In this document: in pieces, positions 19,699 to 34,761 of the stretch
Numbering within the stretch: position 1 is the first letter of the stretch
Layout: every line of letters starts with the position of its first letter
IMG/VR virus record: IMGVR_UViG_3300025430_001071
Span: 1 to 46,420 of that record
Reading direction: 5' to 3' (one strand)
From: a virus
Length of the DNA: 46,420 nucleotides
Translations under genes and position numbers: made by a program
Notes under the pieces: generated by a model
The model's database searches: none
What the model saw: only the letters and a program-made list of their open reading frames with translations
What the model was told of the DNA's origin: nothing

Positions 19699-19770
19699 AT
19701 GGCAAGAGCAAGAAGTTTGAAGACAATGGCTAAACGTGCGGCTAAACGTCACGTTAGTAAACGTCGTTAA
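19699..19770 (+). CDS. 23-residue highly basic peptide
   Basis: A strong AAGGAG sits nine bases before an ATG that encodes 23 residues, 11 of them Arg or Lys, plus one His (it begins MARARSLKTMAKRAAK and ends SKRR). The good ribosome site and the promoter directly upstream argue it is made. It resembles nucleic-acid-binding tails and could bind RNA or DNA; a leader-peptide role for the downstream RNA is another option. Function unknown. Confidence 0.6.
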   Translation: MARARSLKTMAKRAAKRHVSKRR

Positions 19771-19808
19771 GAATTGAGCAAGTCTCAATAGTAAGACTGT
19801 ATGAAGTA

Positions 19809-19828
19809 GATTGAAAAGGATTCAAGAC
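19809..19828 (+). repeat. Imperfect copy of the tmRNA acceptor-arm upstream sequence
   Basis: These 20 bases match 20658-20677 at 17 of 20 positions (GATxGAAAAGxxTTCAAGAC). The second copy belongs to the tmRNA acceptor piece; the homing endonuclease lies between the two. The pair looks like a partial target duplication left by endonuclease insertion. The flanking 19771-19853 region also contains TTGAGCAAG, like the tmRNA coding piece, so it could be a decayed tmRNA fragment. No gene is seen in it. Confidence 0.55.
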
Positions 19829-19864
19829 GTGGGTTCTTTTAGGCGGAGTCGAAGTGTCGTCCGG

Positions 19865-19872
19865 CATAAATA
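19865..19872 (+). promoter_or_regulatory. Late-promoter-like motif CATAAATA
   Basis: Five bases before the preferred homing-endonuclease ATG at 19878. Could give a near-leaderless late transcript of the endonuclease, as T4 homing genes are often expressed late, or be fortuitous. Confidence 0.4.
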
Positions 19873-19877
19873 CATTT

Positions 19878-20651
19878 ATGTATTACTATGTCTATCAAAT
19901 AACAAACTTGCTGAACAGTAAGATTTATGTTGGAAAACATAAATCTGTCAAACATCCTTCTGAAAATGGATACTACGGTTCAGGAAAACAAATCACTGCC
20001 GCTATTAAAAAATATGGTGTAGAAAACTTTAACAAAGAAGTTTTACATTACTGCTCGTCATTAGAAGAAATGGCTGACAAAGAAGCAGAAGTTGTTACAG
20101 AAGATTTTGTAAAAAGATCTGATACTTACAATATGCACAAAGGCGGTCCAGGAGGGTGGGATCATTATAACGGTAGCAAAGAACATAGTGAAAATTCTCG
20201 TAAAGGCGGCAAAAAAAGCGGCAAGCGATTAAACGATTTTATAGCAGAGCAAAAGGCTAATAATACAGAATGGTGGCAAAACTGGTATGCTAATGTAGTA
20301 GAACAAAATCGTAATAAAAATAATAATAGTTGGTTGAACATTTCTGAAGATGAGATACAACGAAGAAAAAAGCAACAAAGTGAAAATGCAGCAGGGCATA
20401 AGAATAGTCAATACGGTAAGATTTGGATATCAAATGTATTGACAAAAGAAGTAAAACGCATTATAATAAATGACACTATTCCAGAAGGATGGGTAAGAGG
20501 CAAGAAAGGCCACGTTCCTAAAAAACTGTGGGTAAATAATAGTGTTAAAGAACATTATATCTTGATTGAAAAAAAGCAAGAATATGTTTCTAAAGGATTT
20601 AGTAGTGGCAGGCTTGAATCAAGTATGGCACGAAACAGAATAGTAGTTTAA
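19878..20651 (+). CDS. GIY-YIG homing endonuclease
   Basis: The first 90 residues form a GIY-YIG nuclease: YYVYQITNLLNSKIYVGKHK (the two Tyr-containing strands), GYYGSGKQITAAIKKYG, and later EMADKEAEVV with the catalytic Glu. The rest is basic and contains repeated segments (SEHSENSRKGGKKSG; LWVNNSVKEHYIL) like the DNA-binding NUMOD units of T4 Seg/I-TevI-type enzymes. The ATG at 19878 begins exactly at the GIY-YIG fold; a GTG at 19854 would add eight residues. It sits just before the tmRNA acceptor piece and is flanked by imperfect repeats, which suggests it invaded the tmRNA locus as a selfish element. Confidence 0.88.
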   Translation: MYYYVYQITNLLNSKIYVGKHKSVKHPSENGYYGSGKQITAAIKKYGVENFNKEVLHYCSSLEEMADKEAEVVTEDFVKRSDTYNMHKGGPGGWDHYNGSKEHSENSRKGGKKSGKRLNDFIAEQKANNTEWWQNWYANVVEQNRNKNNNSWLNISEDEIQRRKKQQSENAAGHKNSQYGKIWISNVLTKEVKRIIINDTIPEGWVRGKKGHVPKKLWVNNSVKEHYILIEKKQEYVSKGFSSGRLESSMARNRIVV

Positions 20652-20652
20652 T

Positions 20653-20910
20653 GCTTTGATAGAAAAGTGTTCAAGACCCGGCTTCGAAGCCGGCACCTCC
20701 ACCTAAGTGTATGCTGTATATTTAGGTGGGGGTGACATGGTGATCGATTGAGCAAAGAGTATTGACAGGATCTACTCGGCAATGTAGAAGCCGTTAGGAT
20801 TGGGGTGACCCGATCGAAGACACAAAAAAAGTAATCGCAAACGACGATACATTCCTATTGGCCGCAAACGCCTAATAGCGAGGTAGTTATACCTTGTAAC
20901 CAAAAATAGC
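20653..20910 (+). ncRNA. ssrA: Circularly permuted (two-piece) tmRNA gene; tag ANDDTFLLAANA
   Basis: tmRNA frees stalled ribosomes and adds a degradation tag. Here the order is permuted: acceptor piece first (P2 3' strand TGTTCAA, T-arm hairpin around TTCGAA, CACCTCC then ACC at 20694-20703), a short spacer (20704-20727), then the coding piece starting GGGGGTG at 20728. CACCTCC pairs with GGGGGTG over 7 bp, and the third pair is G-U, the alanine identity mark. TTGAGCA after the D-like region pairs with TGTTCAA. The tag frame begins at GCA 20837 in the context GTAATCGCAAACGACGA, close to E. coli ssrA, and ends TAA TAG at 20873-20878. Two-piece tmRNAs are known from alphaproteobacteria, cyanobacteria and some betaproteobacteria. 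The T-loop is slightly irregular (6 or 8 bases). Exact processed ends are not determined. Confidence 0.88.
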
Positions 20911-20940
20911 AGAAAGGCTCTTGACGGGGCCTTTCTTTTT
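20911..20940 (+). terminator. Terminator of the tmRNA gene, containing the next promoter's -35
   Basis: AGAAAGGC/GCCTTTCT forms an 8-bp stem followed by a T run. The 10-base loop contains TTGACG, the -35 box of the promoter at 20921-20949. Confidence 0.85.
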
Positions 20941-25636: not shown

Positions 25637-26041
25637 ATGTCAGGTAAAATAACATTAATCACACCACCCGATATCTATGAGAACGGCAATCACAGTACTT
25701 TGTTTATTCATCCCAGTGATGAAGAACAGGATGTAATTAGCCAGTGGTTGGGAAAATCTGGATTGAAAAATGATTTAAACTTCTATATCTTTTCAGGAGA
25801 AAATAATGTTAGTTGGTTTCTTTATGCGCTGAGTCGTTGTGAGCATAAGTATATTAATATAGATTGTTACAACTCTATTACACAAGCATTAGGTGGATAT
25901 ATTTTAGGCAAGAACAATGTTTACTATACAACCATCGATGAAAATCTTGCCGCAGTATATAGTCATATCAATCACAATAGAATAGAAAACGTAACAAAAT
26001 TTCTGGAGACAACATTTAGTGACCAAGCAACACCAACATAA
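25637..26041 (+). CDS. Phage protein of 134 residues, unknown
   Basis: Begins MSGKITLITPPDIYENGNHS, with alternating strands and helices (HKYINIDCYNSITQALGGYIL). I associate the LITPPDIYEN start with a conserved protein of T4-like aquatic phages; function unknown. It overlaps the start of clpX by 23 bases, so the two are coupled. Confidence 0.75.
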   Translation: MSGKITLITPPDIYENGNHSTLFIHPSDEEQDVISQWLGKSGLKNDLNFYIFSGENNVSWFLYALSRCEHKYINIDCYNSITQALGGYILGKNNVYYTTIDENLAAVYSHINHNRIENVTKFLETTFSDQATPT

Positions 26042-27245
26042 TCATAGCTGTGATTTCTGCGGCAAATCAAAAGAAGATGTTGAAAAATTAATAGTAGGTG
26101 AACATAGCGCAATATGTAATGATTGTATTGATCTATGTGTTAACATACTAAATGACGAAAAAACCACAACTGTACAGCATACCAATTTATTAAACCCATC
26201 CTTGATCAAAGATTATTTGGATGAATATGTAATTGGACAGGATGAAGCAAAAATCGTTCTCAGTGTGGCAGTCAGTCAACATTTTAAACGTATCAATAAT
26301 CCCAGCAAGGACGTCAAATTAGAAAAGACCAACGTATTATTACTTGGCCCCACAGGCTGCGGTAAAACCATGATGGCCCGTAAAATTGCTGAGTATTTAG
26401 ATTTGCCATTTGCTATCTGTGATGCCACTAGTATTACTGAAGCAGGCTACGTAGGTGATGATGTGGAAAGTATCCTATTAAGATTGATCAATGAAGCTGA
26501 CGGGGATATGGAAAAAGCATCACGTGGCATTGTCTATATTGATGAAATTGACAAAATAGCACGTAAAGGTGAAAGTGCCAGTATCAGTAGAGACGTCAGT
26601 GGTGAAGGTGTACAACAAGCCCTACTCAAAATGATTGAAGGCAGTATCATGCGAGTTCCGTTCAGTGGAAAACGTAAACATCCTGGTAGCGATATGCAGG
26701 AAATTGATACCAGCAGTATTCTGTTTATTTGTGGCGGCGCATTTGTTGGATTGGAAAAACTTATTGAAAGACGTACCAATAGTCGTACCATAGGATTCCA
26801 GGCTGTCAGCGCAGACAAACAGGATTTAGAAAATATCTATCGATTGACCACTAACAAGGATCTTATACAGTTTGGACTCATCCCAGAGTTTGTAGGACGA
26901 TTTGGATTAATAACCAATGTTGATGAGTTAACTGTGGATCAACTAGTACAGGTATTGAAAGAACCAAAAAATAGTCTTGTAAGGCAATATCAATATATCT
27001 TTAAGTTGGATGGTATCGATTTAGAATTTGACAACGATGCTCTACAACTTGTGGCCGAACAAGCCAAGGAACTCAAAACCAATGCTCGTGGATTAAAAAA
27101 TATTATTGAAAAGACTCTATTACCTTATCAATTTGGTGCTGTAGATTTAGTAGCAAGAGGTTTAACCAAAATTGTGATAAGTAAAAATACCATTGCTGAT
27201 AACGAACCAGCCTTGATGATTTTTGATAAGAAAGTAAATGAGTAA
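26019..27245 (+). CDS. clpX: ClpX ATP-dependent unfoldase
   Basis: A 408-residue AAA+ protein complete from the zinc domain to sensor 2. C11/C14 and C33/C36 form the N-terminal zinc-binding domain; GPTGCGKT (110-117) is Walker A; EAGYVGDD (143-146) is the substrate-gripping pore loop; IVYIDEID (171-178) is Walker B; GKRKH (RKH loop, 219-221) reads substrate tags; TIGF (IGF, 258-260) is the loop that docks ClpP; NARGLK is sensor 2. With the IGF loop kept, it can pair with host ClpP, since no clpP is seen here. The start is a GTG with GGAG 12 bases upstream, needed to include the zinc cysteines. It shares a short overlap with bS21. Confidence 0.95.
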
Positions 27246-33919: not shown

Positions 33920-34225
33920 ATGACTACAGATACGATTATTGAAGAAAAAACAGTTACTAACAAACGAATCAAAATGCCTAAAAAATACAAGGTTTTGGTT
34001 CTTAATGATGACTATACTCCTATGGAGTTTGTAGTTGAAATGTTTTCTTATGTTTTTAGAAAATCAAGTCACGAGGCAGTGGCATTGACAATGAAAATTC
34101 ATACTGAAGGACAAGCAGTGGCTGGAATTTACACCCACGAAATCGCTGAACAAAAAGTCATCGAAGGTACTGAAATGGCACGTGCTCACGGCCATCCACT
34201 TATATTAAAAGCAGAACAAGAATGA
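33920..34225 (+). CDS. clpS: ClpS adaptor protein
   Basis: A 101-residue protein with the ClpS core: YKVLVLNDDYTPMEFVVEMF, then HEAVALTMKIHTEGQAVAGI and YTHEIAEQKV, ending HPLILKAEQE. The NDDYTPMEFV segment and the His/Met pocket residues match the fold that binds N-end-rule substrates and the ClpA N-domain. A basic 20-residue N-terminal tail is present, as needed for ClpA delivery. ClpS normally works with ClpA, not ClpX; no clpA is seen here, so it would act on host ClpAP. Overlaps heme oxygenase by ATGA. Confidence 0.93.
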   Translation: MTTDTIIEEKTVTNKRIKMPKKYKVLVLNDDYTPMEFVVEMFSYVFRKSSHEAVALTMKIHTEGQAVAGIYTHEIAEQKVIEGTEMARAHGHPLILKAEQE

Positions 34226-34761
34226 GTCTAAAAGAACTAACCAGAGATAAACACGCTGCCGCTGAAGGCACAAGATTTATGAAAGCAGTGTTTGATCAAA
34301 CATTGCCCATGTCGCTTTGGATTGATTATACCTACCAAAAACATCTATGGTATAGAGAAATTGAGACCCAAGCCAAAAAGTTTGGACTGATAGATGGTTT
34401 ACCAGGCATTGAACGAGCCGACCTAATTGCCAAAGATTATAAAGAGATGATGACAGGTAAACTATCTGAATATCATGTCTATAAAGAAATTACCAAGGAC
34501 TACGTTTCCTATATTCGTAAATTAGATGATCCACAACGTGTATTGGCACACCTGTATACTTGGCACATGGGAGACCTGTTTGGCGGGCAAATGATCAAAA
34601 AAATCATTGATGCGCCACACAGTCATTTAGATTTTGAAAATGCCAAGGATCTTATGTTTGTACTACGTGGTATGTTAGACGACAGCATGGCCGATGAAGC
34701 TAATGTGGCCTTTGATTGGGCTATCAAAATACTGGGTGAGTACGATGCCAGTTTGGGATAA
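34222..34761 (+). CDS. ho: Heme oxygenase
   Basis: A 179-residue all-helical enzyme that opens heme to biliverdin IX-alpha, CO and iron. LTRDKHAAAEGTRFM carries the proximal heme ligand H11, and HMGDLFGGQMIKK the distal helix with the flexible glycines (GDLFGGQ). Length is slightly short compared with cyanobacterial HO1 (about 240), as in phage versions. It overlaps the bilin reductase gene, so its product biliverdin is presumably used directly. Ferredoxin must come from the host. Confidence 0.92.
   Translation: MSLKELTRDKHAAAEGTRFMKAVFDQTLPMSLWIDYTYQKHLWYREIETQAKKFGLIDGLPGIERADLIAKDYKEMMTGKLSEYHVYKEITKDYVSYIRKLDDPQRVLAHLYTWHMGDLFGGQMIKKIIDAPHSHLDFENAKDLMFVLRGMLDDSMADEANVAFDWAIKILGEYDASLG

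Follow-up and report, generated by a model that had tools for sequence, protein, structure and literature searches.

The virus contig analysed here, an IMG/VR record of 46,420 bp referred to below, at its full length, as the window, carries a complete, circularly permuted tmRNA gene (20586-20938), the tag of which, ANDDTFLLAANA, ends in AANA and lacks the LAA-like degron end that is usual for permuted tmRNAs. Tags of this type form a well-supported class associated with phages. We hold with moderate confidence that this anatomically intact tmRNA frees the ribosome, and that its AANA end slows or redirects, during infection, the destruction of proteins that carry the tag.

The gene was identified by an Rfam search of the window. 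The RF01850 (beta_tmRNA) model matched over its full length with 94.2 bits (cut-off 84, E 2.2e-27), and the RF04321 (tmRNA_permuted) model gave 91.3 bits (cut-off 47) for positions 20642-20875; both scores are far beyond chance level, and the identity of the gene as a permuted, two-piece tmRNA is nearly certain. A sequence-only reading of the window had proposed such a phage tmRNA at 20653-20910. The covariance search, above cut-off in both models, confirms the proposal and its location, while the proposed extent turned out a little too short at each end. The parts of the gene and its flanks are as follows.

20439-20467, plus strand: putative promoter-like TTGACA-17-TATAAT (12/12 consensus match), within the upstream endonuclease gene
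20586-20938, plus strand: permuted (two-piece) tmRNA, whole gene (RF01850 model positions 1-331)
20678-20693, plus strand: T-arm CCGGC-TTCGAA-GCCGG with a loop of 6 nt
20694-20703, plus strand: acceptor 3' strand CACCTCC (20694-20700) and ACC (20701-20703)
20704-20727, plus strand: intervening segment between both acceptor strands, presumably removed on processing
20728-20734, plus strand: acceptor 5' strand GGGGGTG with G3-U70 (7/7 pairing, covariation in relatives)
20837-20875, plus strand: tag frame ANDDTFLLAANA, starting with GCA at 20837 and ending with the stop codon TAA
20911-20936, plus strand: terminator-like intrinsic hairpin followed by a T run, in the downstream flank of the tmRNA

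The acceptor 3' strand, CACCTCC-ACC, precedes the 5' strand, GGGGGTG, as the sequence-only reading had stated, and the stem formed by CACCTCC and GGGGGTG is paired at 7/7 positions with a G3-U70 wobble, a feature of alanylation. The ACC of the acceptor end is encoded, while its final A is not present in the DNA. The resume context claimed to resemble that of E. coli ssrA was also found: the tag is opened by a normal AAGTAATC followed by GCA (also given as GTAATC followed by GCA), with 12 codons and then TAA TAG. The order of acceptor, intervening and coding segments, the G3-U70 stem, the resume site and the tag frame are shared with the permuted tmRNAs of RF01850 and RF04321, from which the window gene differs in its 6-nt T-loop and in a tag end that is AANA and not LAA-like. 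Additionally, its D-loop region reads AUCGAU, as compared to UUCGAC in the permuted tmRNA consensus. ARAGORN reported nothing when run on the window tmRNA, probably because of the 6-nt T-loop. The tag is identical in a second contig, which is 99.7% identical to the window over 7.4 kb; as this contig is near-identical and yet differs, an assembly error is unlikely. Processing of the precursor would yield two pieces, acceptor and coding, which together form one tRNA-like domain by pairing. In two other phage tmRNAs, L175 (1501-1884) and L173 (1501-1864), the segment between the acceptor and coding pieces is unusually long and resembles a small ORF.

The unusual A-N-A end, which the sequence-only reading had also pointed out and which is read here at 20837-20875, recurs in 16 distinct phage tmRNAs. 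An IMG/VR scan for tags starting with Ala-Asn-Asp and ending with Ala-Ala-Asn-Ala matched 21 contigs, and every tag was 12 aa long although lengths of 11-14 were permitted. Deduplication left those 16 tmRNA sequences (that of the window and 15 others) with eight distinct tags: ANDDTFLLAANA, ANDSQFLLAANA, ANDDTYLLAANA, ANDSHFLQAANA, ANDSTYLIAANA, ANDANFKVAANA, ANDAQFLVAANA and ANDAYFLVAANA. Their consensus is AND-x-x-[FY]-x-x-AANA. The tmRNA_permuted model scored above cut-off in 16/16 AANA contigs submitted (L187-L202, with L195 cut by the locus end), and three AANA tags were read independently by ARAGORN. All 14 testable acceptor stems of the set, which comprise eight different sequences, pair at 7/7 positions (after shuffling, a mean of 3.5 and a maximum of 9), and their variation across the relatives is compensatory, with G3-U70 kept. 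Codons vary synonymously at all four AANA positions of the 16 distinct tmRNAs, while the peptide end is constant. As AANA itself was specified in the search, selection is supported independently only by these synonymous codons, by the constant tag length and by how rarely other AAxA ends occur. When the eleventh residue was opened to any amino acid and tags were counted if in frame and accompanied by a permuted acceptor stem, this residue was mostly Asn, in some cases Ala and in two cases Tyr; AAYA tags (ANDAEFKVAAYA and ANDSQFKVAAYA) are encoded by two further contigs. In two phage samples drawn regardless of tag, LAA-like ends dominate: for the GGGCC acceptor type, 111 tags could be read and none ended in AANA; for the GGGGG type, 73 could be read and AANA was present only in the window and its near-identical twin.

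It is the tag end that looks new. Two-piece phage tmRNAs as such have already been published: 53 were suggested in the phage genomes known by early 2021, of which 50 are marine or aquatic (PMC9004378). In the open-access literature, surveyed mostly at title level, we noticed no paper on AANA tags and none describing phage tmRNA with an inserted homing endonuclease.

Several other departures from the usual tmRNA were observed in phages. The AANA tmRNAs L187, L190, L199, L202 and L205 have the T-loop GGCAGTG, and not the usual TTCGANT. Very long tags, of 25-33 aa, are encoded by the phage tmRNAs L008 (near 4070, minus strand), L384, L331 and L404, which have in common motifs such as GKGFRFGGSK...TEAAFA or VTVSGKNVKFSAR...SLAV. 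In L461, L466, L470, L465 and L486, frames such as ANDDIYLAAVA follow a resume-like context; these five gave no tmRNA match in Rfam or ARAGORN and may be divergent tmRNAs whose tags end in AAVA.

The AANA pattern was found in none of 399 Burkholderiales genomes and none of 398 Pseudomonadota genomes, a sample of about 800 genomes that is proteobacterial only, so that an AANA tag in hosts of other phyla is possible. A control LAA pattern of the same style had matches in 26/60 Burkholderiales genomes. The exact pattern for the intervening segment had no match in the bacterial genomes searched. As to the host, the AhpC encoded in the window is 69% identical to Burkholderiales proteins, but permuted tmRNA scored above cut-off in only 5/150 Burkholderiales genomes.

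The window belongs to a freshwater myophage that has Methylophilales phage Melnitz and Pelagibacter phage HTVC008M among its relatives; these two phages and Pelagibacter phage Mosig are myophages like the window phage. The window also encodes ribonucleotide reductase, porin, CsgG, FecR and a curlin-repeat protein, as well as the following.

26019-27245, plus strand: ClpX gene with a GYVG pore loop
28849-30153, minus strand: probable 5-aminolevulinate synthase gene (Pfam aminotransferase class I/II fold)
34222-34761, plus strand: probable heme oxygenase gene

The two latter genes have counterparts in aquatic phages known to carry Shemin-pathway genes (PMC11480375). Melnitz shares with the window a two-piece tmRNA and a run of CsgG, curlin-like repeat, FecR and curlin repeat genes, and its CsgG, about 43% identical to that of the window, is one of few in the phage collection to match it. 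However, the tag of Melnitz is the canonical ANDNYVPVDYALAA, unlike ANDDTFLLAANA, and the published description of its tmRNA, an alphaproteobacterial type under glutamine riboswitch control, also sets it apart from that of the window. No similarity of the window tmRNA to sequenced phages was found by blastn. Another known relation is to the TLD-only RNA of mycobacteriophage DS6A, also a phage-borne tmRNA-like gene and thought to affect host trans-translation (PMC4131195); it is without a tag frame, while that of the window is intact.

The region upstream of the tmRNA bears traces of an earlier copy.

19794-19836, plus strand: older tmRNA acceptor-piece remnant, broken in the T-loop, which matches the intact gene of L093 up to GGTTC
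19854-20651, plus strand: SegE-like GIY-YIG endonuclease gene, directly upstream of the tmRNA (Pfam SegE_GIY-YIG 31.8 bits, cut-off 25)

The order in the window is thus acceptor remnant, GIY-YIG gene and intact tmRNA. In the sister contig L093/L178, which is 90-92% identical to the window in blastn segments on either side, the tmRNA is uninterrupted, has another acceptor half than the intact gene of the window and encodes the canonical tag ANAANDEVFALAA; its acceptor half is the one of which the window retains the remnant. Results of this comparison point to an endonuclease-linked replacement of the acceptor half, in which the tag changed too, as the likely history of the locus. Interruption of the T-loop by a group I intron was considered and rejected, as no group I intron core was matched in Rfam at E<=1 in 19700-20640. 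Besides the window, L008, L196, L384 and L045 also have acceptor remnants, mostly cut in the T-loop, at a distance of about 0.8-1.1 kb ahead of an intact phage tmRNA. L008 and L196 have the same layout with GIY-YIG genes, that of L196 being reversed and recognised by its similarity to the gene of the window. The gap of L384 contains a metallopeptidase M24 gene, and that of L045 an HNH-like reading frame, noted by eye and without a Pfam match.

As to the fate of tagged proteins, trans-translation on the phage tmRNA would make use of host AlaRS, SmpB and ribosomes. SmpB was not found in 23 tag-bearing or related phage records, hence it must be supplied by the host. The AANA tag may best be read as the usual ten-residue Ala-Ala tag with an Asn-Ala extension: taken alone, ANDDTFLLAA has the form of an ordinary tag of ten residues, and in the window Asn-Ala comes after it. 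ClpXP recognition is determined mainly by Ala-Ala at the very end, including the free carboxylate, and a change of the penultimate Ala raises KM (PMC7652416), so an AANA end should slow or redirect the destruction of tagged proteins. Ribosome release would be normal and recognition of the AANA end by ClpXP weaker. Since ClpX contacts the C-terminal Ala as well as the carboxylate, and both are retained, slowing is likelier than full escape. Altered handling of the tagged products, as proposed in the sequence-only reading, is plausible. Laboratory tmRNA-DD tags, which end in LDD, free ribosomes without efficient ClpXP degradation. The window tag resembles them in its altered end and, presumably, in its effect on degradation, but it is natural, recurrent in phages and keeps the C-terminal Ala.

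The reading that the tag frees the ribosome and delays or diverts proteolysis has to be weighed against three others. A decaying or non-functional gene is highly improbable. The ARAGORN miss, the T-loop one base short, the alterations around the D-loop and a broken upstream copy would fit a pseudogene, but the model match is full-length and above cut-off, the tag frame and resume site are intact, as is the acceptor stem with its G3-U70, 6-nt T-loops are present in many other phage tmRNAs, and the tmRNA is kept in the near-identical contig. We also doubt strongly that AANA is neutral, that is, a chance extension past an old stop codon which was spread by recombination and does not affect the fate of tagged proteins. 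In favour of it, the tmRNA gene is a mosaic, several AANA phages share nearly identical stretches of the coding piece, and in the sister phage a canonical tag occupies this position; as that phage is 90% identical, the AANA ending is not essential. On the other hand, the same two extra residues and total length recur in the divergent L191, L192, L193, L197 and L200, the tmRNAs of which gave no blastn match to that of the window at E 1e-8, and the last codons vary synonymously and not otherwise.

Another reading, in our view unlikely, takes AANA as a working degron for another protease or adaptor or for the phage ClpX, with destruction by a route under phage control. Its end is conserved and not random, the C-terminal Ala and carboxylate are retained, and the ClpX of the window is complete, with pore, RKH and IGF motifs and with the known degron-contact residues kept except for Thr199, which is replaced by Ser. 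This replacement was rejected as an adaptation to the tag, as a relative whose tag is canonical has the same Ser. A link between AANA and ClpX, seen early on in 3 AANA records vs. 0/29, was likewise rejected after 6/50 further records proved to have ClpX: the gene is present in 3/21 AANA records and 6/79 others (p = 0.39), these counts being lower bounds, as many records are fragments, and ClpX showed no link to tag type. The tmRNA-bearing phages L407, L408 and L448-L453 also have ClpX genes encoding the GYVG pore loop, irrespective of tag type. Slowed or redirected destruction of proteins released with an AANA tag is the reading we retain. A wider proposal, put forward tentatively, is that several phage lineages evolved or exchanged AANA and AAYA tags which bury Ala-Ala by two residues, either uncoupling rescue from destruction by ClpXP or making use of another protease while the infection proceeds.

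The recurrence of a non-canonical tag end bears on the question of why phages carry a tmRNA. The organization of the locus suggests that endonuclease genes aid the swapping of tmRNA halves, and of tags with them, among phages. Tags ending in AANA, which occur in phages and are absent from the sampled proteobacterial genomes, may serve as a probe of whether the freed ribosome, the destroyed protein or one of these alone is what matters.
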